From assembly GCF_000506985.1 (NCBI RefSeq), contig NZ_KI650979.1:1364710-1428709 (forward strand): a DNA stretch of 64,000 nucleotides, given 5' to 3'. A model generated the notes under the pieces. That model did no database searches. It saw only the letters and a list, made by a program, of their open reading frames with translations, and had not been told where the DNA came from. This DNA comes from Advenella kashmirensis W13003 (lineage in GTDB: Bacteria > Pseudomonadota > Gammaproteobacteria > Burkholderiales > Burkholderiaceae_B). Below are positions 7,521-27,488 of this stretch, one piece after another (position 1 is the stretch's first letter; each line of letters begins with the position of its first letter). A program made the position numbers and the translations under genes.

Positions 7521-7530
7521 CAGTATACTG
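7521..7530. promoter_or_regulatory. PicR-type palindromic operator before dctQM
   Basis: CAGTATACTG is a perfect 10-bp palindrome followed by ATTAAT, ending 61 bp before the dctQ start. A second partial copy, CAGTACCTG, lies at 7544-7552. Read on the minus strand the site is TCAG-TATA-CTGC, which fits the TCAG-N4-CTNN pattern I recall for A. faecalis PicR. TATACT inside the palindrome could be a -10 element, although no good -35 is seen here. Confidence 0.7.
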
Positions 7531-7591
7531 ATTAATATTCAATCAGTACCTGAGATTCCTGTTCACCCTTTTCAGCGGCCTCCCAATATCA

Positions 7592-8203
7592 ATGAATATT
7601 CTGTTCAGCCTTTCCAAAGCGATTGACGCCCTCCTGAACGCCATTGGGCGAGTCGTTATCTGGCTTACGCTCGTCGTGGTCCTCATCAGCGCCGGCAATG
7701 CGGTGATCCGTAAGGTCTTGCATGTCAGCTCCAATGGCTGGCTGGAGATCCAGTGGTATTTGTTTGGCGCCATCTTTCTGCTGGCTGCAGGCTATACGTT
7801 TCTGAAAAATGAACATGTGCGCGTCGACATTATTTCCCAAACGCTGAGCAAGCGCGCTCAGATCATGATTGAAATATTCGGCGTGCTTTTTTTCATGTTG
7901 CCTGCCTGTCTGTTGCTGCTTGATTTGTCCATACCGTTTTTCATTCAGTCGTTCGTGACAGCAGAGCAGTCCTCGAATGCAGGCGGCTTGATACGCTGGC
8001 CGGTGAAGCTGCTGATTCCCATCGGTTTTTTTCTCCTTGTGCTGGCGGCCATATCGCATCTGATCAAGTGCGTTGCCTATCTGGCGGGTAAGGGGCCCGA
8101 CCCTTTGGCGCCCGCTCACGGGAAAACCGCGGAACAGCTATTGGCAGAAGAGATCGCCCGCGAGGCACAACAGAAAGAAATAGAACAAAAGGCGGGTAAA
8201 TAG
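7592..8203 (+). CDS. dctQ: TRAP transporter small permease (DctQ)
   Basis: The 203-residue protein has four hydrophobic segments (about residues 22-42, 52-68, 90-112 and 140-162) typical of DctQ, plus a charged cytoplasmic C-terminal tail rich in Glu, Gln and Lys. DctQ binds DctM in the inner membrane to form a Na+-coupled tripartite importer for organic acids. It ends 1 bp before dctM. No Shine-Dalgarno is evident before the ATG. The PicR-type operator upstream and picC downstream indicate uptake of picolinate or a related pyridine carboxylate, with the binding protein encoded at 17633-18724. The ligand is inferred. Confidence 0.9.
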   Translation: MNILFSLSKAIDALLNAIGRVVIWLTLVVVLISAGNAVIRKVLHVSSNGWLEIQWYLFGAIFLLAAGYTFLKNEHVRVDIISQTLSKRAQIMIEIFGVLFFMLPACLLLLDLSIPFFIQSFVTAEQSSNAGGLIRWPVKLLIPIGFFLLVLAAISHLIKCVAYLAGKGPDPLAPAHGKTAEQLLAEEIAREAQQKEIEQKAGK

Positions 8204-8204
8204 C

Positions 8205-9941
8205 ATGGAATTTCTGGTCAACAATATGCCGCCGATCATGTTTCTCACATTGATCTGCTTTCTGCTGCTGGGATTTCCGGTCGCGTTTACGCTCGCAGCC
8301 AACGGAATTCTATACGCGCTGCTTGGGATCGCTTTCGGCGAGTTTACGTTTTCCTTTTTGCAGGCCTTGCCCGACCGGGTGTTTGGGATCGTCCTTAACG
8401 ACTCATTGCTGGCGGTGCCGTTCTTCACCCTGATGGGCCTGATCCTGGAAAGATCAGGTATGGCAGAGGATTTGCTGGAAACGATCGGACAGCTGTTCGG
8501 CCCGATCCGGGGCGGCCTGGCGATTGCTGTCGTGGTGGTCGGGGCGATGCTGGCGGCAACCACCGGCGTGGTATCGGCATCGGTGATCTCGATGGGGCTG
8601 ATTTCCCTGCCGATCATGTTGCGCTACGGTTACGATCGCAAGCTTGCAACGGGTGTCATTGCTGCATCAGGAACGTTGTCGCAGATTATTCCTCCCTCAC
8701 TCGTGCTGATCATCCTGGCCGATCAGCTGGGGCGTTCCATTGGCGATATGTACCGCGGTGCGATGTTGCCCGGTTTTATCCTGGCAGGCGCGTACATTCT
8801 TTATGTCGTGATCTGTTCCATCGTCAAGCCGTCGAGTGCACCGGCGCTGCCCGAGGAAGCACGGATTTATCGTGAACCCAATGGGAAAAGTGGGCTGGTC
8901 TCGCTGCTGGTGCTCACGATTGTCGCTGCGGCGGGCGCCTGGTTGCTGGATAAAATCCTGCTGACAGAAAAAACGGCGCTGGACGAAGTCGTTGTCCTGA
9001 ACTTGCTGTTGTGGGGCATCATTGCGTTTGTCATCGCTGCACTGAACAAGGCACTGGGGCTCAGGATGCTGTCGCAGATCGCCGAGCGCGTGGTTTTCGT
9101 CATGATTCCTCCCCTGTTACTGATCTTTCTGGTGCTGGGTACAATCTTCATCGGGGTGGCGACGCCGACTGAAGGCGGCGCCATGGGAGCGGTAGGCGCG
9201 ATTGTCATGGCACTGATCCGACGTCGCCTGAGCTGGGCTTTGCTCAAGCAGGCCATGGATACGACTACCAAGCTCACCAGTTTTGTCGTGTTTATTCTGG
9301 TCGGTTCCACAATCTTTACACTTACATTTACCGGATTTGGTGGTCAGCATTGGGTTGAGGGACTGTTTGCAAGTCTGCCAGGTGGCGAAATAGGATTTCT
9401 GATTGTCGTCAGTATTGCAACTTTTTTCCTTGCATTCTTCCTGGATTTCTTTGAACTGGCGTTTATTATCGTGCCGCTACTTGGGCCGGTGGCCGACAAG
9501 ATGGGGATTGACCTGATCTGGTTCGGCGTGTTGCTGGCGGTCAATATGCAGACTTCCTTCATGCATCCTCCTTTCGGATTTGCACTGTTTTATCTGCGTT
9601 CTGTTGCGCCCAAGGAAGATTATGTGGATCGTGTTACCGGAAAATTGATCAAAAGGGTCAGTACAGGAGATATCTATCGTGGCTCCATCCCGTTTATCGT
9701 CATTCAGCTGCTGATGGTGGTAGCGGTCATGGCCTGGCCCGGCATGGTCATGCACTATAAGGGTGCCGGTACCGGCGTGGATCCCGCCACGGTCAAATTT
9801 GATATGGGTACATCGTACGACTCCGGCGGCTATAGCACCGATCCTTATGGCAGTGGCGGGGCAGCCGATTTCGGTAGCCCCGCCCCCGAGCAGGCGCCCG
9901 GCACCGAAAAGGAAAAAGATGCCGCGCCGCTCTTCAAATAG
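8205..9941 (+). CDS. dctM: TRAP transporter large permease (DctM), long form
   Basis: This 578-residue DctM-family permease has an N-terminal PPIMFLTLICFLLLGFPVAFTLA, TGVVSASVISMGLISLPIMLRYGYDRKLATG and PPSLVLIILADQ blocks. Its C-terminal half contains GVATPTEGGAMGAVGA and MHPPFGFALFYLRSVAP. It is longer than the common form of about 425 residues, because of an insert between the two halves (about residues 210-300, with extra membrane segments) and a Gly/Ser/Pro-rich hydrophilic tail. This long subtype is often annotated as mannitol/chloroaromatic TRAP. It forms the ion-coupled channel with DctQ and probably serves the pic pathway. Confidence 0.93.
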   Translation: MEFLVNNMPPIMFLTLICFLLLGFPVAFTLAANGILYALLGIAFGEFTFSFLQALPDRVFGIVLNDSLLAVPFFTLMGLILERSGMAEDLLETIGQLFGPIRGGLAIAVVVVGAMLAATTGVVSASVISMGLISLPIMLRYGYDRKLATGVIAASGTLSQIIPPSLVLIILADQLGRSIGDMYRGAMLPGFILAGAYILYVVICSIVKPSSAPALPEEARIYREPNGKSGLVSLLVLTIVAAAGAWLLDKILLTEKTALDEVVVLNLLLWGIIAFVIAALNKALGLRMLSQIAERVVFVMIPPLLLIFLVLGTIFIGVATPTEGGAMGAVGAIVMALIRRRLSWALLKQAMDTTTKLTSFVVFILVGSTIFTLTFTGFGGQHWVEGLFASLPGGEIGFLIVVSIATFFLAFFLDFFELAFIIVPLLGPVADKMGIDLIWFGVLLAVNMQTSFMHPPFGFALFYLRSVAPKEDYVDRVTGKLIKRVSTGDIYRGSIPFIVIQLLMVVAVMAWPGMVMHYKGAGTGVDPATVKFDMGTSYDSGGYSTDPYGSGGAADFGSPAPEQAPGTEKEKDAAPLFK

Positions 9942-9961: not shown

Positions 9962-9990
9962 CAACGACGTCATCGCGGCATTCGTCGTTG
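9962..9990. repeat. Inverted repeat overlapping the picC promoter
   Basis: CAACGACG (9962-9969) and CGTCGTTG (9983-9990) are perfect 8-bp arms with a 13-bp loop, between dctM and picC. The right arm overlaps a candidate -35 box. With no T-run it is not a classical terminator. It may be an mRNA 3'-end hairpin for dctQM or a second regulator's site. Confidence 0.4.
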
Positions 9991-10017
9991 TCGTCCGGAA
10001 TATTAATCAGTATACTG
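9988..10017 (+). promoter_or_regulatory. picC promoter with PicR-type operator over the -10 box
   Basis: A candidate -35 TTGTCG (9988-9993) is followed by a 17-bp spacer and TATACT (10011-10016). The -10 hexamer lies inside the palindrome CAGTATACTG (10008-10017), flanked on the left by ATTAAT. The form TCAG-TATA-CTGT fits the recalled PicR site exactly. A repressor bound here would block RNA polymerase. Confidence 0.75.
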
Positions 10018-10061
10018 TTATAAAAATCAGGATACAACATTCAAAAGGACAAGGTTCACCC

Positions 10062-11024
10062 ATGACAGTGATGCGCAAGATCGCTTTCGAAGAGCATTTC
10101 AGTGCCGTTGGCTTCGACGACTATTCCAAGGCATTCGTGAAACACATTAGTACACAGGGCAGTAGCGAGCTGAATGCCCGTCTTGCGGACTTCGACGACA
10201 CGCGCATCAAACTGATGGACAAATATGGTATTGAATACGTGATTTTGTCCCAGACCGGACCGGGCGTGCAGAATGAACCGGACAGCGCGACGGCGGTGCG
10301 CCGCAGCCGGGAAAATAACGATTTTCTGGCAGCGCAGATCGAGCGCAATCGCGAGCGCTTCGGTGGATTCGCAACGCTGCCCATGCAGGATCCCCGGGCG
10401 GCGATAGACGAACTGCGGCGCACGGTGAATGATCTGGGTTTCAAGGGAGCGCTGGTCAATGGTCACACTCAGGGCGTGTACTACGATCTGCCCGAATATG
10501 ACCCGTTCTGGGCTGAGCTGGAAAAGCTCGGTGTGCCGTTCTATCTGCATCCATTTGACGCCTTTGATGTACCGCATGCATATAGCGGGCACCCGGAGCT
10601 GGTGGGCGCAACCTGGGGATGGGGCGTTGAAGCAGGCACACATGCGTTGCGCTTGCTCTTTGGTGGTGTGTTCGATCGTCATCCTGGCGTGAAAGTCATC
10701 CTGGGTCATATGGGAGAAGGGCTTCCGTTCCAGCGCTGGCGTTTTGACAGCCGTTTTGCCGTGTACCCGCATGGCGTGACACTCAAGCGTCAACCATCGG
10801 AATATATCGGCAACAATATCGTCATTACCACGTCGGGTGTCTGCTCGCACGCAACTTTGCAGGGTGCGATTGCGGAAATGGGTGCCGAAGCGGTGATGTT
10901 CTCGGTCGACTATCCCTACGAATCGATCGAATTGGCCGCTCAGTTTATCGATACCGCGCCACTGGATGAAAAAACAAAGCAACTGGTGTGCTACGACAAT
11001 GCAAAAAAACTGTTCCGGCTTTGA
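10062..11024 (+). CDS. picC: 3,6-dihydroxypicolinate decarboxylase (PicC), amidohydrolase-2 family
   Basis: This 320-residue protein of the ACMSD/gamma-resorcylate decarboxylase group carries Glu10-x-His12 (FEEHF), His163 (YLHPF), His216 (GHMGEGLPF) and Asp283 (SVDYPYES). The spacing matches the metal ligands of non-oxidative aromatic decarboxylases. In the known picolinate pathway PicC converts 3,6-dihydroxypicolinate to 2,5-dihydroxypyridine. The next genes encode enzymes acting on exactly that product, and no NicC-type flavin monooxygenase is present, which argues against the nicotinate route. It is the first gene of picC-E-D-F, with AAGG 8 bp before the ATG. Aminocarboxymuconate semialdehyde decarboxylase is a less likely alternative. 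Confidence 0.9.
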   Translation: MTVMRKIAFEEHFSAVGFDDYSKAFVKHISTQGSSELNARLADFDDTRIKLMDKYGIEYVILSQTGPGVQNEPDSATAVRRSRENNDFLAAQIERNRERFGGFATLPMQDPRAAIDELRRTVNDLGFKGALVNGHTQGVYYDLPEYDPFWAELEKLGVPFYLHPFDAFDVPHAYSGHPELVGATWGWGVEAGTHALRLLFGGVFDRHPGVKVILGHMGEGLPFQRWRFDSRFAVYPHGVTLKRQPSEYIGNNIVITTSGVCSHATLQGAIAEMGAEAVMFSVDYPYESIELAAQFIDTAPLDEKTKQLVCYDNAKKLFRL

Positions 11025-11041
11025 TTCAACAGGAGAAGATA

Positions 11042-11884
11042 ATGAACACTTTTATGTACGGGGCGAATGTTCACGCAAATGGCATCCGTCAGCACTACTT
11101 GCGATTTGGCGGCGTAGAGGGGGCACGCAAAACGCGTCCGGCGATTGTGATCGTACCGGGTATCACCAGCCCTGCCACTACCTGGGCCTTTGTGGGAGAG
11201 CGGTTTGGTCAGCACTATGATACCTATGTGCTTGATGTGCGAGGCCGCGGCCTGAGCGATGCATCTGCTTGCATGGATTACAGTCTGGATGCCCAGGCCA
11301 GGGATGTGATCGAGTTTGCCCGTGCACTCAAACTGCAGGAATACATCATCGTGGGACATTCCATGGGCGCGCGCATTGGTGCCAGAGCCGCTGCTACCCG
11401 GCCGGCCGGTCTGGCCAGGCTGGTCATGGTTGATCCGCCTGTGTCCGGCCCCGGCCGCCGGGCTTATCCGTCCAAACTGCCGTGGTATGTAGACTCAATG
11501 GCGCTGGCGCGCAAGGGTTGCAGCGCGCAGGAGATGAAGGCATTCTGTCCCACCTGGACCGACGAACAATTGCAGCTGCGTGCCGAGTGGCTTCACACGT
11601 GTGATGAGCGCGCCGTTATCGAAAGTTTCGAGGGGTTTCATACTGATGATGTCTTTGCCGATTTCCCGAACATTCAGATTCCCGTATTGCTGATGACGGC
11701 GGAACGCGGCGATGTCGTGTTGCCCGCAGACGTGAGCGAAATCGAAGGTCTGATCGATGGGCTGACGCATGCCCGGGTGGGTGATGCCGGCCATATGATT
11801 CCCTGGGACAACGAAGAGGGGTTCTATCAGGCATTCGGCGATTTCCTGGGAGAGCGCCTGACGGATTCGCGCCAGGCGCGGTAA
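11042..11884 (+). CDS. picE: N-formylmaleamate deformylase (PicE/NicD-type alpha/beta hydrolase)
   Basis: The product is a 280-residue alpha/beta hydrolase with nucleophile Ser107 in VGHSMGA, an oxyanion-region VPGITSPATTW, an acid residue probably at Asp224 or Asp230, and His251 in DAGHMIPW. The start at 11042 follows AGGAG with a proper spacer and lies 17 bp after picC. An in-frame ATG 54 bp upstream would overlap picC. The reaction expected from the pathway is hydrolysis of N-formylmaleamate to maleamate and formate. Its place between the decarboxylase and the 2,5-dihydroxypyridine dioxygenase supports this over a generic esterase. Confidence 0.88.
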   Translation: MNTFMYGANVHANGIRQHYLRFGGVEGARKTRPAIVIVPGITSPATTWAFVGERFGQHYDTYVLDVRGRGLSDASACMDYSLDAQARDVIEFARALKLQEYIIVGHSMGARIGARAAATRPAGLARLVMVDPPVSGPGRRAYPSKLPWYVDSMALARKGCSAQEMKAFCPTWTDEQLQLRAEWLHTCDERAVIESFEGFHTDDVFADFPNIQIPVLLMTAERGDVVLPADVSEIEGLIDGLTHARVGDAGHMIPWDNEEGFYQAFGDFLGERLTDSRQAR

Positions 11885-11971
11885 TACCGACAGCGGTGCA
11901 CGCACCCGTGACAACAAGTGCATGCTGCGTTTTTTTTAATGTTGCGTCCTATATTTACAAGGAGACTGTTC

Positions 11972-13021
11972 ATGGCCGTTAGCGATTATCAACTGATTGC
12001 CGCCTGGCAGCACGTTCTGACCCTGTCCAGGCTGGAACGGGGACAAACCGTTACCATTTTAACCAGCGCCATTACGCATCCCCAGACTCTGGCATGTGCG
12101 TTGATTGCGGTGCAGTCCATGGGGGCGGTGGTTAACCGGCTGGATTTGCCGCCCGTAAACGCAGAGAAATCATTAAGCCGGGATCCGCTGGCTTACCTTG
12201 GCACCACACCGCTTACAGGCAATCCCGCTGCCATTGCCGCGCTGAAGGCCAGCGATCTGGTGCTGGATCTGATGACGCTGCTTTTTTCACCGGAACAGAT
12301 CGATATCCTGGAAAGCGGCACCAAGATTCTGCTGGCGGTGGAACCGCCGGAAATACTGGTGCGTTGCCTGCCGACTGCCGAAGATCGCGAACGGGTACTG
12401 GCGGCTTCGGCACTTATCACGAATGCAAAGGAAATGACCGTCGTCTCGGACGCAGGTACGGATTTGCGTTGTCCGCTGGGCGAATTTCCGGCCATCAGCG
12501 AGTATGGCTTTGTTGACGAACCTGGGCGCTGGGATCACTGGCCCAGCGGCTTTTCACTGACATGGCCCAACGAGCAGGGAGCCAACGGCACTATTGTGAT
12601 CGACACGGGAGATATCCTGTTGCCCCAGAAATCGTATGTAGGCTCGCCCATCACCCTAACGGTGAAAAACGGGTATGCAGTAAAGATCGAAGGCGGAATT
12701 GACGCCGAGCGTCTGTCCGAATATATGGAAACCTTCAACGATCCGGAAGGCTATGCGATTTCGCATATCGGATGGGGACTGCAGAAGCGCGCGTATTGGT
12801 CAACGCTCGAACTGTACGACAGGGAACAAACCATAGGCATGGATGCGCGCGCCTTCGCCGGCAACTTTCTGTTTTCGCTCGGTCCCAATAATGAAGCGGG
12901 CGGGTCTCGCACCACGGCATGTCATATCGATATTCCGTTGCGCAATTGTACGGTGCGACTGGATGAAAAAGCGGTCGTCATAAAAGGAAAGCTTCAGGAA
13001 GAGAGACATGGAACACAATAG
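11972..13021 (+). CDS. picD: 2,5-dihydroxypyridine 5,6-dioxygenase (PicD/NicX)
   Basis: The 349-residue protein matches the NicX family, a non-heme Fe(II) ring-cleavage dioxygenase related in fold to M29 aminopeptidases. His265 (YAISHIGWG), His318 and Asp320 (TACHIDIPL) stand at the same positions as the iron ligands known in Pseudomonas NicX. It opens 2,5-dihydroxypyridine to N-formylmaleamate. The ATG at 11972 follows AAGGAG by 8 bp, and an upstream in-frame ATG at 11918 has no such signal. The 3' end overlaps the picF start by 14 bp, suggesting coupled translation. Confidence 0.95.
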   Translation: MAVSDYQLIAAWQHVLTLSRLERGQTVTILTSAITHPQTLACALIAVQSMGAVVNRLDLPPVNAEKSLSRDPLAYLGTTPLTGNPAAIAALKASDLVLDLMTLLFSPEQIDILESGTKILLAVEPPEILVRCLPTAEDRERVLAASALITNAKEMTVVSDAGTDLRCPLGEFPAISEYGFVDEPGRWDHWPSGFSLTWPNEQGANGTIVIDTGDILLPQKSYVGSPITLTVKNGYAVKIEGGIDAERLSEYMETFNDPEGYAISHIGWGLQKRAYWSTLELYDREQTIGMDARAFAGNFLFSLGPNNEAGGSRTTACHIDIPLRNCTVRLDEKAVVIKGKLQEERHGTQ

Positions 13022-13655
13022 CGAATCACACGTGTACGCAGCCCAGGGGTTCGGCGCCGATCTTGAATTGAAACCGCCCATCGGATTGTTGATTGTGGAT
13101 TTGGTTAACGGTTTTGCCGATCCTGACATATTTGGTGGCGGCAATATCCGCCAGGCAATCGACAATACTGTCCCGTTGCTGGAGGCGGCCAGACAGGCTG
13201 GCTGGCCCATTGCGCATACGCGCATTGTGTATGCCGATGACGGTTCCGATCACAATGTGTTCAGCGCCAAGATTCCTGCCATGCTGACGCTGACCGAACA
13301 GGCGTCGCGCAGTCAGATCGTGCCTGAGCTGACGCCGCGCAGGGGCGAGCTGGTTGTGCGAAAAAATGTAGCATCGGCTTTTTTCGGGACTTCGCTGGCT
13401 GCGTGGCTGACGCATCGTGGCGTGCATACGCTGGCGTTCGCGGGCGCCGTTACCAGCGGGTGTATACGGGCCAGCGTGGTGGACGCCAGTCAAATGGGTT
13501 TTGCGCCGCTGGTGATCGAAGACTGTGTGGGCGACCGCGCAGAAGGGCCGCATCAGGCGAACCTGTTTGATATGAGGCAGAAATACGCGGTGGTTATGAA
13601 GCGGGATGAGGCCCTGGCTGCGTTGGGTATCAAAAGAATGACGGCCAAGGCCTGA
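13008..13655 (+). CDS. picF: Maleamate amidohydrolase (PicF/NicF), isochorismatase fold
   Basis: This 215-residue cysteine hydrolase of the isochorismatase family has its catalytic triad visible as Asp31 (LIVDLVNGF), Lys119 (VVRKNVASAFFGT) and Cys152 (VTSGCIRASV), with the usual non-proline cis-peptide region AVTSG. It hydrolyses maleamate to maleate and ammonia, the nitrogen-releasing step of the pathway. The gene starts inside the end of picD (14-bp overlap), and a hairpin terminator follows 48 bp after its stop, so picC-E-D-F form one unit. Confidence 0.93.
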   Translation: MEHNSESHVYAAQGFGADLELKPPIGLLIVDLVNGFADPDIFGGGNIRQAIDNTVPLLEAARQAGWPIAHTRIVYADDGSDHNVFSAKIPAMLTLTEQASRSQIVPELTPRRGELVVRKNVASAFFGTSLAAWLTHRGVHTLAFAGAVTSGCIRASVVDASQMGFAPLVIEDCVGDRAEGPHQANLFDMRQKYAVVMKRDEALAALGIKRMTAKA

Positions 13656-13762: not shown

Positions 13763-14281
13763 TTAAATCGGATACACAAGGCTATTGGCCAGAATTTCGG
13801 TATCGAAGATCGCGTGGCGCTCTTTGAGCCTGAGTTGATCGCCGACCCACACGAACGTATCATGATAAGTGCCTGCCAGGTGAATCGTGGACGGCCCCTC
13901 GACCAGCGTTTGCATCAGCAGGAAATTGGCCTGTGCCTCGATGTCGCCTGCCTCGGATTCCTGCAGGATCCGAATGTTCGACACCACGTGCAGGGTAAAG
14001 CGTGGCGCATACATTTGCGTGCGTGACGTCGCGACGGCGCGGTCATGCATCATGTCGCGTCCCTCGGCGTAGATCAGGCCGACAGGCAGCCCCAGTTCGG
14101 CATTTTCCCGGGACGTGGCGCGATACAGGCCGTCTTCCGTGAAAAAGTCAGGCCATTGTTCAACCTGATTCTGATCCAGCACGGCGCAATATTCTGCATG
14201 AAAATTTTCAATCTCCGGTCTCAATGCCAGCGCTCGTTCCCTTGAAATATTTTGTGGCTGGTACGTGAACGTATTTTTCAT
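13763..14281 (-). CDS. picB4: Ring-hydroxylating oxygenase beta subunit (PicB4)
   Basis: The 172-residue protein matches the small, non-catalytic subunit of Rieske ring-hydroxylating oxygenases (SnoaL-like cone fold). It shows an N-terminal helix ALRPEIENFHAEYCAVLDQNQVEQWPDFFTEDGLYRA and a later FTLHVVSNIRI block. It should form an alpha3beta3 complex with PicB3. AAGAAGG lies upstream of the ATG, and the gene lies 14 bp after picB3 as the last gene of the minus-strand unit. Suffix numbering follows the A. faecalis order as I recall it, so B1-B4 labels are less certain than subunit roles. Confidence 0.88.
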   Translation of the reverse strand: MKNTFTYQPQNISRERALALRPEIENFHAEYCAVLDQNQVEQWPDFFTEDGLYRATSRENAELGLPVGLIYAEGRDMMHDRAVATSRTQMYAPRFTLHVVSNIRILQESEAGDIEAQANFLLMQTLVEGPSTIHLAGTYHDTFVWVGDQLRLKERHAIFDTEILANSLVYPI

Positions 14282-14295
14282 TTGTGATTGCCTTC

Positions 14296-15585: not shown

Positions 15586-15619
15586 AACTTTTCTCCTGAA
15601 TGATCCGATGATCTGCCGA

Positions 15620-16912: not shown

Positions 16913-16973
16913 TGTTCACCTCCGGGGCTGGCCCTCAATGATCCTTCTTGATCGTACTCATGCACGACAGATT

Positions 16974-17282: not shown

Positions 17283-17361
17283 TTTTGTTCCTCTCGAAAA
17301 TCATCAAACCTGCCGGTTGTCCGCACTTACACCCGGCAGACAAGGGCTTCAAAATATTATT

Positions 17362-18754: not shown

Positions 18755-21175
18755 ATGAACGATAGCAAAGACACTCAGGCAGTCGTCAAACCACAAGGCG
18801 TGGGAGCACGCCTTCGACGCAAGGAAGACGTTCGCCATTTACAGGGCAAAGGCAATTTCATCGGTAACATGCAGATGGCCGGCTTGCAGGAAGTGGCGTT
18901 CCTGCGCAGTCCCGTGGCGCATGGAAGCATCAGGCGCATTCATGTCGAGGATGCGGCGCGCGACAATGTGATTTTGCGCGAAGCGATGGATTGCGCCGAT
19001 ATCTTTGCGCCGTCGACCCTGCCGGGTTATCAGAATTCCACGGTGCCGCCTCTGGCCAGCGGCAAAGTCAGGCTGGTGGGCGAGGCGGTGGCCATGGCCT
19101 TCGCCGCTACCCGCGCCGAGGCGGAAGACTATGCGGAAATGGTGCAGGTCGACTATGACGAGTTGCCCGTGTACGCAAACATGCACGATGCGCGCAAGGC
19201 GCAGGATCATTTCGTACATGATGGCTGGAACAACAATCTGTTTGTACAGTTAAAGAGCGATGTGAAGTTCGAGGAAGCTGCAGCAAAGGCGACCCGCCAG
19301 GTCACGCACAGCGTCAGCCTGTCGCGGCAATGCATGTTGCCCATGGAAGGCAAGGCAGTCCTGGCGTACTGGGATCATCAGTCAGATCAATTGGTTGTTT
19401 ATTGCGGCAGCCAGATACCTCATATGCATCGCACGGGATTTGCCGAGTTTCTGCAACTTGATCAATCGCGGATCCGCGTGATCTCGCCCGATGTCGGTGG
19501 CGCATTTGGCTATAAATGCGTGCTTCATCCCGAAGAGCTATGCGTGGCCTGGCTGGCCAAAACGTACCGAAAGCCGTTCAGGTACATGGAAGACCGGCGC
19601 GAGCACCTGATCGTGGGGGCCAACACGCGCGAGCATGAATACAGGCTGACCGGCCATATCGATGACGCCGGTCGGCTGCTGGCGCTGGAAGCCGAGATCA
19701 CAGTCGATGCAGGCGCGTACTCGGTCTGGCCCTTTACCGTGGGCCTGGAAGTCGGGCAGGCGCTGGGCAATCTGCCCGGTCCCTACCGGATCGAGGGTTA
19801 TCGCTGCACCACCACGGGAGTGGCGACGAACAAGCCCGGATTTATGCCGTACCGGGGTGTTGCGCGCACCGGCGTCTGTCTGGCGATCGAACAGCTGATG
19901 GACGCCATCGCGCGCGAGGTAGGCAGGGAGCCCTGGGAGGTGCGTCTGGATAACCTTGTGCGGGCCGAAGATATGCCGTATGTGAATATTGCCAACAAGC
20001 ATTACGATGGGGGTGATTATCCGGCAGGCCTGCGTCGTGCCCTGGAGATGATTAATGTACAGGAGGTACGCGCGCGCCAGCGCACTCGTAAAAACGGCGA
20101 GCCCCTGCTGGGAATTGGCCTGGCCACCTATACCGAACAGTCCGCGCACGGTACGTCTGTGTTCGCGGCCTGGGGAACGGCAGTCATTCCCGGGTTTGAC
20201 CAGGCGATGGCGCGCATTTCCGCAGATGGCAGCCTGGAGCTGAGTGTCGGCGTGCATTCGCATGGGCAAGGCATGGAAACCAGTTTCGCCCAGATTGCAA
20301 ATGAAATTCTGGGAATCGATGTCTCTAAAATCAACCTGACGCATGGCGACACCGGTCGCACACCGTTCTCAACCGGCACCTACGCGTCGCGTTCTGCCGT
20401 CATGTCCGGCGGCGCGGTATCCCGGGCGTGCAAGTCCCTATTGCCGCGGCTATTACATATCGGCAGCCATATGCTGGGCGTTTCGATCGACGACGTCGAG
20501 CTGGTCGATGGACAGGTGCGGCATGGCGACCGGCATGTGACTGTCGCCGATATCGCGGATGCCTGGTATATCCATCCCCAGAAGTTGCCGCCCGATGTGG
20601 ACCCGGGCGGCCTGGAGATCACGGTGGGTTACAAGCCAAAGGTCGATACCGGCAGCTTTACCTATGCATCCTGCGCCGCAGTCATTGCGCTGGATCCACA
20701 TACGGGAATCGTCAAGGTCCTGGATTATGTCGTCGTAGAAGACTGCGGCACCATTCTGAACCCGCTGATTGTGGAAGGTCAGACAATAGGCGGTACAGCA
20801 CAGGGGATCGGTACCGCACTGTACGAAGAAACGCCCTATGACGATGCAGGCCAGCCGCTGGCATCGACATTGGCCGATTACGTCATGCCCGGCGCTCCTG
20901 AAGTGCCCAATATTCGTATCGAGCATACGCAGACGCCATCGCCGAATACGGAATTCGGCGCCAAGGGCATGGGCGAGGGCGGCGCCATTGCGCCACCTGC
21001 CGTACTGATGTCGGCGGTCAACGATGCACTGAAAGACAGGCATGTTCTTGTCACCCGCACTCCCATGACACCGAAGCGAATTATGGAAGCAATCACTGCG
21101 GCAGGCGAGCATTCTGCCGCGATTGACATAGACCAGCCAACAGTTGCGGCGCCCTTGCGGGAGGCTGCAGCATGA
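18755..21175 (+). CDS. picA1: Picolinate dehydrogenase molybdopterin subunit (PicA1)
   Basis: This is the 806-residue large subunit of the xanthine dehydrogenase/CO dehydrogenase family. It has an N-terminal a/b-hammerhead domain (VGARLRRKEDVRHLQGKGNF), Mo-cofactor segments GGAFGYKC and PYRGVARTG, and a C-terminal GAKGMGEGGAI in which about Glu741 is the expected catalytic base. Together with PicA2 and PicA3 it should hydroxylate picolinate at C6 using water. No cytochrome domains are fused, unlike NicB of Pseudomonas nicotinate hydroxylase. The stop overlaps the picA2 start (ATGA). Confidence 0.9.
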   Translation: MNDSKDTQAVVKPQGVGARLRRKEDVRHLQGKGNFIGNMQMAGLQEVAFLRSPVAHGSIRRIHVEDAARDNVILREAMDCADIFAPSTLPGYQNSTVPPLASGKVRLVGEAVAMAFAATRAEAEDYAEMVQVDYDELPVYANMHDARKAQDHFVHDGWNNNLFVQLKSDVKFEEAAAKATRQVTHSVSLSRQCMLPMEGKAVLAYWDHQSDQLVVYCGSQIPHMHRTGFAEFLQLDQSRIRVISPDVGGAFGYKCVLHPEELCVAWLAKTYRKPFRYMEDRREHLIVGANTREHEYRLTGHIDDAGRLLALEAEITVDAGAYSVWPFTVGLEVGQALGNLPGPYRIEGYRCTTTGVATNKPGFMPYRGVARTGVCLAIEQLMDAIAREVGREPWEVRLDNLVRAEDMPYVNIANKHYDGGDYPAGLRRALEMINVQEVRARQRTRKNGEPLLGIGLATYTEQSAHGTSVFAAWGTAVIPGFDQAMARISADGSLELSVGVHSHGQGMETSFAQIANEILGIDVSKINLTHGDTGRTPFSTGTYASRSAVMSGGAVSRACKSLLPRLLHIGSHMLGVSIDDVELVDGQVRHGDRHVTVADIADAWYIHPQKLPPDVDPGGLEITVGYKPKVDTGSFTYASCAAVIALDPHTGIVKVLDYVVVEDCGTILNPLIVEGQTIGGTAQGIGTALYEETPYDDAGQPLASTLADYVMPGAPEVPNIRIEHTQTPSPNTEFGAKGMGEGGAIAPPAVLMSAVNDALKDRHVLVTRTPMTPKRIMEAITAAGEHSAAIDIDQPTVAAPLREAAA

Positions 21176-22020
21176 AGGCCGCCAAATTTGATTACATACG
21201 CGCCGGCTCGCTGGATGAGGCGTTTGCGCAGCTTGGCGCCGATGATTTCGGCACCAAGATTCTGGCCGGCAGCCAGTCTCTGGGTCCCATGCTGAATCTT
21301 CGCCTGGCGCGTCCGGGAAAACTGGTCGATATTTCTGCTGCGGCGCCATTGCGTACGGTGGAAAAACAAAGCAATGGTATCCGTATTGGCGCCGCAGTGA
21401 CGCATGCCGAAATCGAGGACGGCGTGCACGAAGCGCTGCGCGGTCATATGATGCATTACGTTGCAGGGCGGATCGCCTATCGCGCGGTGCGCAACCGGGG
21501 CACGATCGGCGGCAGCCTGGCCCATGCAGACCCGGCGGCTGACTGGGTCCTGGTGACTCATGTGCTGGATGCCGTCCTGGAAATTCAGGGAAGCCGTGGC
21601 AAGCGCAGCGTTCCGGCCGCGCGCTTCATGCAGGCGGCCTACACCACGGATTTGCAGCCGGACGAAATGATTTTATCGGTTCGCGTGCCCGAGGCCTCGC
21701 CCGATGCGCGTTGGGGGTATTACAAGTTTGTACGCAAGGTCGGAGAGTTTGCGGAAGCCAGTTGCGCCTGTTATTTCGATCGCAATAAAGGTATTGCCCG
21801 CATCGTGATTGGCGCGCTCGATGGCGCTCCGCAGGTATTGCCCGATCTTTCTGTCGAAGTGGCCAGGCAAGGCGCCGGCGCCCTGACGCCGCACGTCATC
21901 GATGAGGCGATTGCACCGCATATGCAGAACAAAGACCCGGCCGAGCGCATGTGGTTTCGCACGGTCGTCGAGCGCAGCCTTTGTCAGGCGCTGGGAATAA
22001 AAGGAATGACCCATGAGTGA
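21172..22020 (+). CDS. picA2: Picolinate dehydrogenase FAD subunit (PicA2)
   Basis: The 282-residue medium subunit has the CoxM/XdhB FAD fold: AGSQSLGPMLNLRLARPGKLVDI near residues 33-55 and RNRGTIGGSLAHADPAADW at about 105-123, both flavin contacts. It carries electrons from the Mo/Fe-S subunits to the acceptor. It is translationally coupled to picA1 by ATGA and overlaps picA3 by 8 bp, as expected for subunits made in fixed ratio. Confidence 0.9.
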   Translation: MKAAKFDYIRAGSLDEAFAQLGADDFGTKILAGSQSLGPMLNLRLARPGKLVDISAAAPLRTVEKQSNGIRIGAAVTHAEIEDGVHEALRGHMMHYVAGRIAYRAVRNRGTIGGSLAHADPAADWVLVTHVLDAVLEIQGSRGKRSVPAARFMQAAYTTDLQPDEMILSVRVPEASPDARWGYYKFVRKVGEFAEASCACYFDRNKGIARIVIGALDGAPQVLPDLSVEVARQGAGALTPHVIDEAIAPHMQNKDPAERMWFRTVVERSLCQALGIKGMTHE

Positions 22021-23212
22021 ACTCGCACTGGAAGTCAACGGCAAGCCGGTCCGTTCTGACGTGACACCCCGTACCCATTTGGGCGATTTTCTGAGAGACA
22101 GTCTGCGCCAGACTGGCACCAACCTGAGCTGCGAGCACGGTGTCTGCGGCTCGTGTACGGTTTTGGTGGATGACAAGCCTGTGCGTTCATGTATTACGTT
22201 CGCGGTGGCTTGCGAAGGTAAAAGGGTCACGACGATAGAAGGCTATGACGATGACGTCGTCATGCGCATGCTGCGTGGCGCATTTAATGAGTTTCATGCC
22301 TTGCAATGCGGTTTCTGTACGCCCGGTATGCTGGCCACCAGCCGCGACATTGTGCTGCGGCTGCCCGATGCAGACGAAGAGCGTGTGCGCATTGAATTGA
22401 GCGGCAATATCTGCCGCTGTACCGGCTACCAGGGGATCACCGGCGCCGTCATGTCCGTACTAAACACACTGAGGGCGCAGCCTGATGATGAAGTCGAGGC
22501 GTTGCGCGCCGCCCTGCGACAGAATGCGCCGCGCGAGTTTCCTGTTTTCACCGATTTTGCGCCGTTTTCGGCGGAGAAACCCTTGAACGAAGCCGTTCCG
22601 GTTGCCACCGAGTTTGCCCCTGCCGGAAAGGCGCGCACCGCGGCAAAAGACGGTAAAGGCACGGCAGTTGAAAGCGGTTTTGACGTGAAGCTGCCTGCAG
22701 GCCAGGTCTGGACGTTCATGACCGATCTGAAAGCGGTCGCCGGTTGCCTGCCAGGCGCAGTCATCGAAGAACAGGACGGAGACCGGGTTACCGGCAAAAT
22801 CGCCATCAAGTTCGGTCCCATGGCGGCGGCTTTTCGTGGGAACGCGACGCTCGATCGCAACGATAGCGAGCGTACTGCCACGTTGCGCGGAGAGGGCGTC
22901 GACTCTCTGAGCAATTCGCGAGCAAAGGGCGATGTGACTTACGCGATTGAAGCCACCGGAGAAAACCAGTCCCGTGTCAACGTCTCGCTCGCCTATTCGC
23001 TGCAGGGTCCGTTGGCGCAGTTTTCCCGGTCCGGACTGGTACAGGACTTCGTTAAGCGCATGATTGCGGACTTTGGCCGGAATGTCGAATTTCGCTTGTT
23101 GAACCCGGACGCCGACGCCAGCCAGATTCCGCAATCACAGATCAGTCCGTTCAAACTGATGCTGAGCGTGCTTTGGGATCGCGTCAGAAGATTGTTCGGC
23201 TCCAGGGGCTGA
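22013..23212 (+). CDS. picA3: Picolinate dehydrogenase [2Fe-2S] subunit fused to a CoxG/SRPBCC domain (PicA3)
   Basis: Residues 1-160 are the small iron-sulfur subunit. A plant-type cluster is bound by Cys40, Cys45, Cys48 and Cys60 (CEHGVCGSC...RSC), and a second by Cys99, Cys102, Cys134 and Cys136 (CGFC...CRC). A linker of about 60 residues leads to a CoxG-like SRPBCC domain (about 222-370: VKLPAGQVWTFMTDLKAVAGCLPGA, ITGKIAIKFGPMAAAFRG-like strands, GEGVDSLSNSRAKGDVTY). The tail is hydrophobic and basic (LMLSVLWDRVRRLFGSRG). The stand-alone subunit is usually about 160 residues, so the chain is more than doubled. CoxG anchors CO dehydrogenase to the membrane, so a similar role is inferred. 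Confidence 0.88.
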   Translation: MSELALEVNGKPVRSDVTPRTHLGDFLRDSLRQTGTNLSCEHGVCGSCTVLVDDKPVRSCITFAVACEGKRVTTIEGYDDDVVMRMLRGAFNEFHALQCGFCTPGMLATSRDIVLRLPDADEERVRIELSGNICRCTGYQGITGAVMSVLNTLRAQPDDEVEALRAALRQNAPREFPVFTDFAPFSAEKPLNEAVPVATEFAPAGKARTAAKDGKGTAVESGFDVKLPAGQVWTFMTDLKAVAGCLPGAVIEEQDGDRVTGKIAIKFGPMAAAFRGNATLDRNDSERTATLRGEGVDSLSNSRAKGDVTYAIEATGENQSRVNVSLAYSLQGPLAQFSRSGLVQDFVKRMIADFGRNVEFRLLNPDADASQIPQSQISPFKLMLSVLWDRVRRLFGSRG

Positions 23213-23293
23213 AGGCGAACTGCGACTGGTGGACAGGTTCGCAATCGCAATAAGCCATATTCCGTATCAAACCAGCGAAAGGAGTGTGCAGTG

Positions 23294-24313
23294 ATGAAAG
23301 CGTTGTTCAATAAGGTCCGGCGGTGCATTGTCATTGCGTCTTTCGGTGTCGGGCTGCCTTCGATCGCGTGGGCGGCAACCGATCTGTCCGTGCGGCTGGA
23401 CTGGACGCCCTGGGCTGTTCAGGCCCCCTTTCACCTGGCCATGCAAAAGGGCTGGTTCAAGGCGGCTGGCCTGAATGTGCGGATGGAAGATGGCAATGGT
23501 TCGGTCAGTACGGTGCAGATGCTGGGGGCGGGCGATCATTTCGATGTCGGTCACGCGTCGCTTGCGGCAATGATGATCGGCCGCGACAAGGGCATGCCCC
23601 TGAAGGCAATTGCTCCGTTCATGACCCGAACCGATATTGGCGCCCTGGTGCCTGCCGATTCGGATATCAAAGGGCCTGCACAGCTTAAGGGAAAGAAGGT
23701 GCTGTACACGGCAGGCTCACTGGAAGCGCCGTTCATTGATTTTTTCCTGAAAGAAGGGAAGCTGACACGCAACGATCTGGACCTGCTCAGCGTTGATGCC
23801 TCGGCCAAGGCGGCCACGTACGCGGTCGGGCGCGCCGATGCGGTTATTTCGACCATACCGTTTATCTTTCCAAGTGTCTCGCGGCAGCGCCACTCGCGCG
23901 CGCTGCCGTTTTCCGACTATGGCCTGGACATGGTGAGTTTCGGACTGTTCACCAGCGAACAGAAGCTGCAGGAAAAGAAAGACGCGATCGCCAAGTTCGC
24001 CAGTATTGTTGCTTATGGCTGGCAGTACATACTCAACGGCCATGAATCGGAGGCGGTGGATGCCATCGTCGCCCAGCGACCGCAAGCGCGCCTGGACAAA
24101 GCGATTCTGGCCGAGCAGCTCGAGGCGCTCAAGCCTTATTTTCCCACGTCGAAGGAGCAAGCTGTCGGTGCCGTCAACCCGGAAGATTTCGAGAAATCAG
24201 TCAGTACACTGCATAAAGTGGGTTCAATCGGTTCCAGGCTGGATCCAGAAGAATACTACGTCAAGGATCTGGTACGACCTGTAGAGACCATTGCCCCGGA
24301 GATTGTCAAATGA
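23294..24313 (+). CDS. ABC transporter substrate-binding protein (NMT1/TauA-like)
   Basis: The 339-residue exported protein has a signal peptide ending IAWA and an NMT1/THI5-like fold: VRLDWTPWAVQAPFHLAMQKGWFKAAGLNVRMEDGNGS, then GHASLAAMMIGRDKGMPLKAIAPF. Relatives bind nitrate, taurine, thiamine precursors or small aromatics. AAGGAG lies 9 bp before the ATG, with a possible GTG one codon earlier. It follows picA3 by 81 bp in the same direction and its stop overlaps the ATPase gene. The ligand may be a pyridine carboxylate, which would give the island two import systems. This is inference. Confidence 0.85.
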   Translation: MKALFNKVRRCIVIASFGVGLPSIAWAATDLSVRLDWTPWAVQAPFHLAMQKGWFKAAGLNVRMEDGNGSVSTVQMLGAGDHFDVGHASLAAMMIGRDKGMPLKAIAPFMTRTDIGALVPADSDIKGPAQLKGKKVLYTAGSLEAPFIDFFLKEGKLTRNDLDLLSVDASAKAATYAVGRADAVISTIPFIFPSVSRQRHSRALPFSDYGLDMVSFGLFTSEQKLQEKKDAIAKFASIVAYGWQYILNGHESEAVDAIVAQRPQARLDKAILAEQLEALKPYFPTSKEQAVGAVNPEDFEKSVSTLHKVGSIGSRLDPEEYYVKDLVRPVETIAPEIVK

Positions 24314-25074
24314 ACGCAGCGGGCGTGGTTGCGGAAAGTATTTCCAAACGATATGGTGGTACGCGGCAGACCCAGGCACTGCAGGATGTCAGTGTGTCAA
24401 TCCAGCCCGGACAGTTTGTCAGCATTCTGGGTCCAAGCGGTTGCGGTAAAAGTACTTTTCTGCGTTGTGTGGCCGGCCTCGAGCGTATTACCGACGGATC
24501 TCTGCGGGTGGGAAAGGACCCGGTAGCCGGGCCGCCTGACAATATCGGCATGGTGTTTCAGCGCGACGCGCTGCTGGAGTGGCGTACGATCCGCAATAAT
24601 ATTCTGCTGCCCATTGAATTTGCCGGCAAGTCAAGGGAGAACTACCAGCATCGGGTCGATGCCTTATTGAGACTGACCGGGCTGTCCGGTTTCGCGGACA
24701 GCTACCCGCATGAACTGTCCGGGGGCATGCGTCAGCGTGCATCCATATGCCGGGCGCTCGTTGATGATCCGCGTCTGTTGCTGATGGACGAACCTTTTGG
24801 CGCGCTTGATGCGCTCACGCGCGATCAGATGAATGTCGAAATGCAGCGAATCTGGATGGAAACCCGCAATACTACACTGTTCGTGACGCACGGTATTGCA
24901 GAAGCCATTTTTCTGGGCGATGTGGTGCTGGTGTTCTGTCCCAGGCCGGGTCGAATTGTCGAAGCCATTCCGATTGGATTCCCACGACCCCGTCCACTGG
25001 AGCTGCGCGAATCCCCCGAATTTGGCCGGCTGGCGACGCATATCCGAGGGCTTTTTGAAGGGATGGAACACTGA
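24310..25074 (+). CDS. ABC transporter ATP-binding protein (SsuB/TauB-like)
   Basis: The 254-residue ATPase has Walker A GPSGCGKST near residue 43, the signature LSGGMRQRASICRAL and Walker [20 protein letters not shown], with an H-loop FVTHGIAEAI. It belongs to the nitrate/sulfonate/taurine importer group. The start overlaps the stop of the binding-protein gene, and the permease gene follows 2 bp later, so these form one importer of the picA transcription unit. Confidence 0.92.
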   Translation: MNAAGVVAESISKRYGGTRQTQALQDVSVSIQPGQFVSILGPSGCGKSTFLRCVAGLERITDGSLRVGKDPVAGPPDNIGMVFQRDALLEWRTIRNNILLPIEFAGKSRENYQHRVDALLRLTGLSGFADSYPHELSGGMRQRASICRALVDDPRLLLMDEPFGALDALTRDQMNVEMQRIWMETRNTTLFVTHGIAEAIFLGDVVLVFCPRPGRIVEAIPIGFPRPRPLELRESPEFGRLATHIRGLFEGMEH

Positions 25075-25076
25075 TC

Positions 25077-25844
25077 ATGAATGCGATGATGAGCTCTGCA
25101 AAAAATTTCATGCATGGCGTGACTTCGCTGGTGGTCTTGATTCTTCTGTGGGAATTGGTCTGTCGCGCCGGCCTGGTTCCTCCCATTATCTTGCCCGCGC
25201 CCAGTGATGTGTTGATGGAACTATTCAACGAGGCGGGCTGGTATGCTGCCCAGGCCTGGTATACCTTGCTGATCACCCTGGCAGGCTTTGTTTGCGCTGT
25301 GGTGGGCGGGGTGTTGATCGCGGTTGCGCTGGTCAGTTCCCGTTTTTTCGAGCGCTATTTTTACCCGCTCATCATTGCATTCAACAGCATCCCGAAGGTC
25401 GCGCTGGCACCGCTTTTTGTCATCTGGCTGGGTACGGGTTCTGAACCTAAAATTCTCATTGCCTTTATGATTGCCGTGTTCGCTGTGATTATTGATACGG
25501 TACATGGGCTGAGATCTGTTCCGCCGGATCTGATCGATCTGGGCCGCGTACTCAAGGGCAGTCCGTTGAGCTTCTTTCTGAAAGTAAAACTGCCCTCCGC
25601 CTTGCCTTCTATCGTCGCAGGCCTGAAAGTGGCGCTGTCGCTTGCGCTGGTGGGTACTATCGTCGGCGAGTTCGTGTCATCGCAAAAAGGCCTGGGCTAC
25701 ATCATCATGAGTGCACAGGGCAGCTTTGATACTGTGCGCGTCTTTGCTTCGCTGTCTATTCTCGCGCTGATGGGGGTCGTCCTGTATGGGGTGCTTGCCT
25801 GGGTCGAAAGCAAAGTCATTGCAGGTCGTCGCGCACAGGATTGA
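25077..25844 (+). CDS. ABC transporter permease (SsuC/TauC-like)
   Basis: The 255-residue inner-membrane permease has about six hydrophobic segments and the EAA loop DLGRVLKGSPLSFFLKVKLPSALPSIVAGLKVALS. It contains FNSIPKVALAPLFVIWLGTGSEPKI, typical of the BPD_transp_1 group for nitrate/sulfonate-like substrates. It is the last plus-strand gene of the picA unit and converges on picR after a 93-bp gap with no clear terminator. Confidence 0.92.
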   Translation: MNAMMSSAKNFMHGVTSLVVLILLWELVCRAGLVPPIILPAPSDVLMELFNEAGWYAAQAWYTLLITLAGFVCAVVGGVLIAVALVSSRFFERYFYPLIIAFNSIPKVALAPLFVIWLGTGSEPKILIAFMIAVFAVIIDTVHGLRSVPPDLIDLGRVLKGSPLSFFLKVKLPSALPSIVAGLKVALSLALVGTIVGEFVSSQKGLGYIIMSAQGSFDTVRVFASLSILALMGVVLYGVLAWVESKVIAGRRAQD

Positions 25845-25937
25845 ACACGGCACACGCGACCGAAAAAGCAGAGGCGGGCCTTGTCCGGTCCATCCGGCGG
25901 CTGGGGTCCGCCAGGTGTTTTTTCACAGGTCTGTTTT

Positions 25938-26459
25938 TCACATATCTTTTAGCGCAGCCCTGCCATATTGATTGTTTTCCTCGACCAGCCGGCTCAGCAA
26001 CTGCACGAATATTTCTCTTTCCTGGTTATTCAGCGGCTCCAGCAAACGTTCCTGGGCGCGTATCATCCCCTTGCGCAACTGTTTCATAACGCGGATGCCT
26101 TCTTCCGTGATAAAGGACTGGCGCGAGCGCCTGTCTTCCGGGTTGACTCGGCGGCTGATCAGCCCTTTGTCCGCCAGGCGCTTGATCACATCTGCGGAGG
26201 TGGTCCGGTCCAGGCCGACCTTCAGGCCGATCGAGGACTGGTCCAGATATTGTTCATTCAGCAATACAGAGAGCACGCCATGTTGCACTGGTGTGATATT
26301 TTCATTCTTGCATTCTTCGTAGAACATGGAGTAGTGAATCTGGTTCAGCCGCCGGACCAGAAAACCAGGGCGTGACCACAACCCCTGGTCGTGAAACTTG
26401 CTTTTGATTCCAGGGGATTGATCGGCCATGGTCAAATCGTTGCTGTCTCTCTTTCTCAT
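25938..26459 (-). CDS. picR: MarR-family repressor of the pic regulon (PicR)
   Basis: The 173-residue protein has a winged helix with NENITPVQHGVLSVLLNEQYLDQSSIGLKVGLDRTTSADVIKRLADKGLISRR and wing NPEDRRSRQSFITEEG, all MarR hallmarks. A MarR protein PicR is known to repress pic genes in A. faecalis, with 6-hydroxypicolinate as inducer as I recall. Here it lies at the far end of the island instead of beside picC. The start is uncertain: ATGs exist at 26504, 26459 and 26429, none with a clear Shine-Dalgarno. An exact PicR-type palindrome lies about 135 bp upstream, suggesting autoregulation. Confidence 0.82.
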   Translation of the reverse strand: MRKRDSNDLTMADQSPGIKSKFHDQGLWSRPGFLVRRLNQIHYSMFYEECKNENITPVQHGVLSVLLNEQYLDQSSIGLKVGLDRTTSADVIKRLADKGLISRRVNPEDRRSRQSFITEEGIRVMKQLRKGMIRAQERLLEPLNNQEREIFVQLLSRLVEENNQYGRAALKDM

Positions 26460-26591
26460 TATGCAGTAAACCTTATGCTGAAGTGGCTTGAAGCACGGGA
26501 GCACGCAGCCTTATGGGCCGGTTACTCCATGAACTTTACTGGTGCACGATGCCATTTTATCGGGAAATGATGCGCCACGCACGAGCAATAA

Positions 26592-27488
26592 CTACAGTAT
26601 ACTGTCATTTTTTTCTGAAAGGAAAGCAAACGTCTGTTTTGCACTTGGAGACAGCTCCCCGATGCGTCGGGCACCCAGCAGAATATTGCGTTTTGCCCAT
26701 GCTTCATTCAGAGGAATCCGCACGGTGTCGGGCACACGGTAAAGATCCACGCTGCGCTCGGGCAGAATGCCGATGCCCATATTGGCATTGATCAGCAGGC
26801 ACATGGCGTCGTAGCCGGACGTTTCGATATCGATCCTGACATTGGCCGATTCCTCGCGTGCTGCGTTGATGAGCTGGTAATTGAGCTGGGTGCCTGCCTT
26901 CAGCGTGATGTGGCTGTATGCCAGGGTCTGCTTGAAGGTTGCTTTGTCGCAGCTTGCCAAAGGATGCGTGGCATGAACCAGGACGACCAGCGTATCTGTC
27001 CGGAAGGGGATGACTTCGATCTCTTCAGTGTAGGGAATTTCGGTGAAAATCCCGATATCCAGCTTGCCTGCGGCCAGGTCGCGCGTAATGCTCAGGCTGT
27101 TTTGTTCTGCCAGATGTAGTTGTATATGGGGATATTTTTTTGTGAAGGCGGCCAGCGGCGGCGCCAGAAACTGGGTGAGCGCGGTGGGATTGGCAGCCAG
27201 CGTCACGCTGCCACGCTGGCCCTGGTTAAAAGCCCCAAGCTGATGCTCTACGGCCTGCACGCTATTGAGGATCGCTCGCCCGCGGTACAGCAACTCCAGT
27301 CCGGCCGAGGTGGGCGTCACGCCGCGATTGCTCCGGTTCAACAGGACCAGGCCGAGTTTGTCTTCAAGTTCGGACAGCCGGCGGCTGACAGCCGCGGCGG
27401 CGATGTTTTCCTGTTCTGCTGCACGGGCAATCGTTCCCTCATCGACAACCCGTATGAATAATTTAAGTGTCAGCAGATCAATTTTCAC
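26592..27488 (-). CDS. LysR-family regulator between picG and picR
   Basis: The 298-residue LysR protein has an HTH IDLLTLKLFIRVVDEGTIARAAEQENIAAAAVSRRLSELEDKLG (residues 2-45) and an effector domain from VTLAANPTALTQFLAPPL onward. The start is a GTG with a weak ribosome site. It follows picG by 27 bp and precedes picR on the same strand. Its last codons and TAG stop lie inside the palindrome ACAGTATACTGT, so the 3' end of this gene doubles as the picR operator. It could be a second, activating regulator of pic genes or of picG. The effector is unknown. Confidence 0.88.
   Translation of the reverse strand: MKIDLLTLKLFIRVVDEGTIARAAEQENIAAAAVSRRLSELEDKLGLVLLNRSNRGVTPTSAGLELLYRGRAILNSVQAVEHQLGAFNQGQRGSVTLAANPTALTQFLAPPLAAFTKKYPHIQLHLAEQNSLSITRDLAAGKLDIGIFTEIPYTEEIEVIPFRTDTLVVLVHATHPLASCDKATFKQTLAYSHITLKAGTQLNYQLINAAREESANVRIDIETSGYDAMCLLINANMGIGILPERSVDLYRVPDTVRIPLNEAWAKRNILLGARRIGELSPSAKQTFAFLSEKNDSIL
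26594..26605. promoter_or_regulatory. PicR-type operator upstream of picR, inside the LysR gene 3' end
   Basis: ACAGTATACTGT is a perfect 12-bp palindrome containing CAGTATACTG. It encodes the final Ser-Ile-Leu codons and the stop of the minus-strand LysR gene. The outer bases are A/T rather than T/A, so it departs slightly from the TCAG-N4-CTNN form. Confidence 0.65.

Follow-up and report, generated by a model that had tools for sequence, protein, structure and literature searches.

Candidate PicR operators in a re-partitioned pic island of Advenella kashmirensis W13003

Which regulator reads the short palindrome that recurs in a putative picolinate (pic) gene island of Advenella, and does its distribution imply that the pic regulon has grown? 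The question is raised by a stretch of 64,000 nucleotides from Advenella kashmirensis W13003 (NZ_KI650979.1, positions 1,364,710 to 1,428,709; hereafter the window), in which CAGTATACTG was taken by a first-pass annotation to mark five promoters of an extended regulon. We conclude, with a probability of roughly 87%, that the palindromes are operators of PicR, a predicted MarR-family repressor encoded at 25938-26459. Three lines of comparative evidence make this very probable: the sites are conserved together with picR in Advenella, a matrix built without Advenella finds the same sites, and similar operators precede pic genes in other genera. The type of switch is known; its layout here is new.

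Scanning the window confirmed exact copies of CAGTATACTG beginning at 7521, 10008, 17362, and 26595, as well as the reported variant at 17553 (CAGCATACTT, an 8/10 match). The accompanying expectation of about 0.06 copies per 64 kb agrees with the value for any random 10-mer (64,000/4^10). The five listed sites are thus real, but a sixth, CAGTACACTG at 24202 (9/10), had been overlooked. Five sites may indeed serve five units (dctQM, picC, picB, dctP, and picR); they occupy only four control regions, however, as those at 17362 and 17553 share one divergent gap. The site at 26595, located 136 bp upstream of the probable picR ATG, extends into the final codons of a LysR gene, next to the stop codon. 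The six candidate operators, read as 12-mers and scored with a position weight matrix (PWM) built from 154 distinct non-Advenella sites, are as follows.

7520..7531, no strand: operator 1, GCAGTATACTGA, 61-72 bp ahead of dctQ and close to the left island edge; PWM score 25.6, the best in the window
10007..10018, no strand: operator 2, TCAGTATACTGT, before picC; PWM score 23.9
17361..17372, no strand: operator 3, TCAGTATACTGT, on the picB2 side of the divergent picB/dctP gap; PWM score 22.2
17552..17563, no strand: operator 4 (weak), TCAGCATACTTG, on the dctP side of that gap, in a 30-nt run invariant among four Advenella; PWM score 11.2
24201..24212, no strand: operator 5 (new), TCAGTACACTGC, inside the NMT1-type gene and 98 bp ahead of the ATPase gene; PWM score 19.8
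26594..26605, no strand: operator 6, ACAGTATACTGT, on the upstream side of picR and extending into the LysR 3' end at the right island edge; PWM score 11.6

These six rank first in the window, the next match scoring 4.5. An order-2 Markov null (40 runs) yields 0.2 matches of at least 11 and 0.025 of at least 19 per 64 kb. The same matrix reduces the ATTAAT flanks of the original description to a mere A/T preference beyond TCAG...CTGA. At up to two mismatches to CAGTATACTG, the window holds 36 matches, compared with 12.5 from shuffles. A genome-wide search, which the first-pass annotation had suggested, returned five exact copies in 4,846,031 bases, where 4.6 are expected. Given a count so close to chance, the signal lies in the clustering: four of the five fall within 19 kb, all in the pic island, and the fifth lies inside an N-formylglutamate amidohydrolase gene and is therefore coding.

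Conservation within the genus follows picR. Among ten Advenella genomes searched, the window's own included, four encode a close PicR (the window's own, G046, G047, and G050), and these hold 5, 5, 4, and 4 exact copies, of which the island accounts for four in every case. Genome-wide counts in the six genomes without a close picR are 0, 1, 0, 1, 1, and 1. The 17553 variant is also kept in all three other genomes with a close picR. In four-way alignments, all 10 columns are invariant at each of the four exact sites, compared with 58% of other noncoding columns, and operator 1 lies in a 23-nt invariant run. Clustering, conservation, and the PWM nulls together rule out a chance origin of the sites.

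Beyond Advenella, we read 80 pic loci (two of them from Advenella) and 15 further non-Advenella genomes, two sets that overlap in part. TCAG-YAYR-CTGA sites were found before picB2, picC, and dctP in many pic clusters of Burkholderiales and Pseudomonas, though others lack them; genera with such sites include Alcaligenes, Achromobacter, Bordetella, Cupriavidus, Variovorax, Pigmentiphaga, Paraburkholderia, Pandoraea, and Pseudomonas. When matches to TCAGTATACTGA are counted over the 300 bp preceding each gene, allowing one mismatch, the non-Advenella loci carry a site before picB2 in 51 of 67 cases, picC in 32 of 61, dctP in 15 of 28, dctQ in 0 of 8, and picA1 in 0 of 56. The corresponding fractions for the further genomes are 9/13, 14/14, 6/13, 0/13, and 0/13. 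By comparison, 34 of 1,480 random 300-base stretches of pic loci contain a site, real operators included. At the sampled places, a site with no more than one mismatch is present in 55 of 71 loci that encode an unbroken PicR, and a two-mismatch site in five more. In clusters with the operator, the recognition helix of PicR mostly reads LDRTTxADVhKRL. The view that the sites are PicR operators, conserved in all four Advenella with a close picR and placed before putative pic operons in many other genera, is thus well supported by these comparisons.

The longer version of the predicted PicR protein scores 42.5 bits against the MarR family PF01047 (cut-off 24.6), and its orthologues in Alcaligenes-type genomes are 65-70% identical and adjoin pic genes. 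The ATG at 26459 is favored as the start over a GTG at 26504, and the ATGAGAAAGAGAGAC start is kept in four Advenella. By sequence, the closest solved structure is PcaV (PDB 4fht, E 5.2e-23), the protocatechuate regulator of Streptomyces, which is related to PicR at the family level only. In Alcaligenes faecalis JQ135, PicR is reported to recognize TCAG-N4-CTNN at three sites, located before picC and in the picB-picT1 gap, with 6-hydroxypicolinate as its ligand. PicR of JQ135 is a published MarR repressor of pic (Xu et al., 2022, doi 10.1128/aem.00172-22). Advenella resembles that system in repressor, palindrome, and the placement of the 10007, 17361, and 17552 sites at picC and in the picB-picT1 gap. 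The TCAG-N4-CTNN rule fits five of the six sites on one strand.

Several observations weigh against the PicR assignment. The TCAG-N4-CTNN rule does not fit ACAGTATACTGT at 26594-26605. That site reads ACAG...CTGT, an A replacing the first T on both strands, and so lacks the T carried by 97% of the (selected) family sites. With both outer bases off consensus, it may be a weak site, weaker than first thought. Eight of the 71 loci with an unbroken PicR show no site within two mismatches at the sampled places, and three could not be judged. Across the genome, the 12-mer occurs with up to two mismatches at 155 places, compared with 78 for the reversed control; the three two-mismatch places examined outside the island each fall within an open frame. 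Finally, a promoter scan returned no sense-strand match at 7521, for picB at 17362, or at 26595.

The site at 26594-26605, which begins 135 bp ahead of the probable picR ATG, also bears on two alternatives. It encodes the last residues of LysR, and its non-consensus outer bases would suit a sequence conserved solely for its coding content rather than as an operator. We regard this as unlikely: LysR orthologues in G049 and G051, two Advenella genomes without a close picR, are 81-82% identical but end differently and lack the palindrome, conservation in the four picR-bearing genomes extends beyond the LysR stop codon, and the site uses ATA, which accounts for 49 of 562 isoleucine codons in 30 window genes. 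Alternatively, a different regulator, such as one of the nearby LysR proteins, might bind all of the palindromes, given that the LysR gene at 26592-27488 shares bases with one site and that the island is flanked by LysR genes at either end. Similar operators are nevertheless present in other genera whose pic clusters, as far as they were fetched, did not contain that LysR, and G049 and G051 keep LysR without the site, which makes such a regulator very improbable.

The overlooked site at 24201-24212 is probably an auxiliary operator or a roadblock. It encodes VSTLHK in frame, and one could suppose that it is a coding coincidence, a possibility of some weight although not the one we favor. When 18 island genes were shuffled synonymously 200 times, nine of the shuffles gave a match of at least 11, and dctM of four further genomes holds weaker intragenic matches (11.5-12.5). 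The site is kept in 4/4 Advenella within the longest invariant run (20 bases) of the NMT1-type gene, yet the 18 aligned genes hold 15 invariant runs of at least 20 bases, so conservation of the run at 24197 is by itself weak evidence. Its score speaks against coincidence: none of the 200 shuffles reaches 19, and in about 1.09 Mb of assigned gene sequence from 98 partly overlapping loci, this Advenella site is the sole intragenic match of at least 14 (five rows, with two duplicate records).

How PicR might act is clearest before picC, where the promoter-like sequence is as follows.

9988..10016, + strand: picC promoter-like sequence, TTGTCG-17-TATACT, 9/12 matches, its second hexamer within operator 2

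The segment GTTGTYG is kept here in four Advenella. According to the first-pass annotation, the palindrome covers a -10 hexamer 17 bp from a -35 at both 10008 and 17553. This was borne out for picC. The 17-bp spacing also holds on the dctP side, where direct reading gives TTGATT-17-CATACT (8/12), under the scan threshold; the scan near 17553 instead lists TTTACC-18-AATAAT, ending at 17552. At 7521, one minus-strand promoter-like match has its spacer across the site. The promoter evidence is good for picC only and fair for dctP, and repression through coverage of the -10 hexamer is well founded for picC only. We infer that a PicR dimer binds TCAG-YAYR-CTGA-like sites and that, when bound before picC, the dimer would mask the -10 hexamer TATACT, itself part of the palindrome, and block RNA polymerase. 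By analogy with A. faecalis JQ135, 6-hydroxypicolinate would release the repressor.

Whether this regulon is wider than elsewhere depends on the genes around the sites. The island runs in the order dctQM; picC, F, D, E; picB4-B3-B1-B2 on the minus strand; dctP, picA1-A2-A3, and an ATP-binding cassette (ABC) transporter on the plus strand; and picR on the minus strand. TRAP denotes tripartite ATP-independent periplasmic transporters.

7592..8203, + strand: dctQ, TRAP small permease (Pfam PF04290)
8205..9941, + strand: dctM, TRAP large permease (Pfam PF06808)
10062..13655, + strand: picC-picF-picD-picE (Pfam for picC/F/E; 64-82% identity to other genera)
10062-11024, + strand: picC, amidohydrolase (Pfam)
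11042-11884, + strand: picF, alpha/beta hydrolase (Pfam)
11972-13021, + strand: picD, by similarity to other genera
13008-13655, + strand: picE, isochorismatase (Pfam)
13763..17282, - strand: picB4 (beta subunit), picB3 (Rieske alpha subunit), picB1 (reductase), and picB2 (Rieske ferredoxin) (Pfam)
17633..18724, + strand: dctP, TRAP solute-binding protein in the picT1 position (Pfam PF03480)
18755..23212, + strand: picA1, picA2, and picA3, molybdenum hydroxylase subunits (Pfam)
23291..25844, + strand: ABC transporter with NMT1-type binding protein, ATPase, and permease (Pfam)
25938..26459, - strand: picR, predicted MarR-family repressor (Pfam PF01047, longer version searched)
26592..27488, - strand: LysR gene at the island border, its last codons formed by operator 6 (Pfam)

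The pic names are transferred from the A. faecalis nomenclature. They rest on gene content, order, and similarity because NCBIfam gave nothing above cut-off for the nine proteins tried. Pfam searches returned no family for picD. PicB3 is 85-86% identical to Alcaligenes and 94-95% identical to Advenella records. In picB3, two genomes from the window's genus are 100% identical to named Advenella loci, which identifies that genus as Advenella.

The first-pass annotation inferred a wider regulon from the dctQM site and the site before picR. In other genera, dctQM forms the 3' terminal part of the dctP-picA(-ABC) gene run in all 13 further non-Advenella genomes with dctQM in the fetched stretch, and in eight pic loci it lies at the end of the run (two), between dctP and picA1 (five), or before dctP (one). 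Not one of these 21 loci and genomes has a site within two mismatches before dctQ. If the gene runs are operons, dctQM is presumably already under PicR in those genera. Because dctQM there belongs to the dctP-picA run and has no operator of its own (21/21), the dctQM operator of Advenella reflects a moved operon, not a new target gene. The same location rules out a wider gene content by way of dctQM. In Advenella, dctQM has moved before picC and picR to the far end, each with its own operator; the gene content of the pic regulon looks the same, and its arrangement differs.

New targets could also lie outside the island. All six sites are inside it, and among the outside sites (one exact copy, which is coding, and 11 with a single mismatch), none is convincing. 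Nine of the 11 lie inside long open frames (one of the nine was family-tested) and were not accepted as targets. Another lies before an RNA uracil methyltransferase gene and was rejected for its broken core. The last, TCCGTATACTGA at G000:C1:765592-765603 of this genome, lies in the noncoding gap before a TctC-type binding-protein gene, which is the best candidate outside the island. It breaks the CAG core, almost invariant in the family matrix, and among nine congeners G046 keeps 11 of its 12 bases within a 70% identical stretch, G044 matches nearby only, and seven show no match; it too was not accepted. That PicR has truly gained target genes relative to A. faecalis, as dctQ's own operator in 4/4 Advenella with a close picR, the partial conservation of the TctC site, and the many two-mismatch places in the genome might suggest, is therefore quite improbable in view of the dctQM positions elsewhere, the broken core, and the coding location of the outside exact copy.

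A separate observation concerns Alcaligenes pakistanensis, where a second molybdenum-hydroxylase cluster (L092:12159-18772) has a PicR-type operator in front. It contains a TctC protein, an unassigned protein, flavin adenine dinucleotide-binding and molybdenum subunits, CoxG, and an iron-sulfur subunit with similarity to picA3. Similar second clusters occur in five other loci and in genome G061, where a second PicR-like gene adjoins one. This cluster may mean that the regulon is genuinely larger in Alcaligenes.

In several other genera, operators come in pairs. Non-Advenella pic loci hold 46 neighboring pairs within 11-60 bp, spaced by 20 (16 pairs), 21 (12), 22 (14), 23 (2), or 44 (2) bp. The sequences are related, and the 11 genus-by-gene groups into which the 46 pairs fall are thus the fair count. 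Pairs occur in parts of the locus series L098-L107, L109-L115, and L121-L125 and in L137 and L165. The two-helical-turn spacing suggests two dimers on one DNA face. Partners at 19-24 bp were sought for all six window sites, and none scored above zero (best -6.3 and -6.8). We tentatively propose, as a possibility short of an even chance, that PicR control depends on multiple dimers acting together and that single operators in Advenella, one intragenic and one per island edge, replace the pairs, possibly by looping or as a roadblock, each broken-off fragment having acquired or kept its own operator. The Advenella pic genes are arranged in a larger number of separate putative units than those of the other genera examined; every moved unit carries an operator, and the ABC transporter part contains a further one.

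The island borders can be read in relatives. In G049 and G051, the sequence after LysR equals the left island flank of G046, G050, and G047, so these two genomes show the empty island site. The island (window 7478-26605) adjoins the LysR-isomerase pair in G046, G050, and G047; beyond LysR lies a gene matching arylmalonate decarboxylase, with an Asp/Glu racemase match at cut-off, which we take as a maleate isomerase. The left flank in the window's own genome differs from that of the other three. Homology on the left begins near operator 1, and the right operator sits at the island edge. Upstream of the dctQ operator, window positions 7484-7503 hold a second conserved block with the runs AATGGTTA and TACTGATAGAG invariant in four Advenella. 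In G047 (C1:97500-134000), seven genes including picR are each split in neighboring frames, a pattern that points to indels in the assembly more than to decay of the genes.

Unlike JQ135, Advenella has six candidate sites, one of them intragenic, separate operators for dctQM and picR, and relocated picR and dctQM. We consider new the re-partitioned layout, the operators at both island edges, the Advenella-only candidate intragenic operator, and the almost exclusive 20-23 bp spacing of pairs in other genera. A literature search, with subscription papers mostly outside its reach, found nothing on Advenella pic operators. In Bordetella bronchiseptica RB50, picT and picB are likewise divergent, picA1A2A3 and picB1B2B3B4 are clustered, and picR lies away from picC, separated by two unknown genes; the passages compared from that account report no operators, unlike what we describe for Advenella (PMC10142695). 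BpsR is, like PicR, a MarR-type repressor; according to the portions of the BpsR study consulted, which contain no operator sequence for comparison, it acts in a different pathway of pyridine-carboxylate metabolism, with DNA binding controlled by a hydroxylated intermediate, 6-hydroxynicotinate (PMC6837509).

These comparisons turn a three-site description from one strain into a cross-genus operator definition, TCAG-YAYR-CTGA, that yields testable predictions on cooperativity and on the intragenic operator. The Advenella island provides a clear case in which regulation appears to have been kept while the gene cluster was rearranged.

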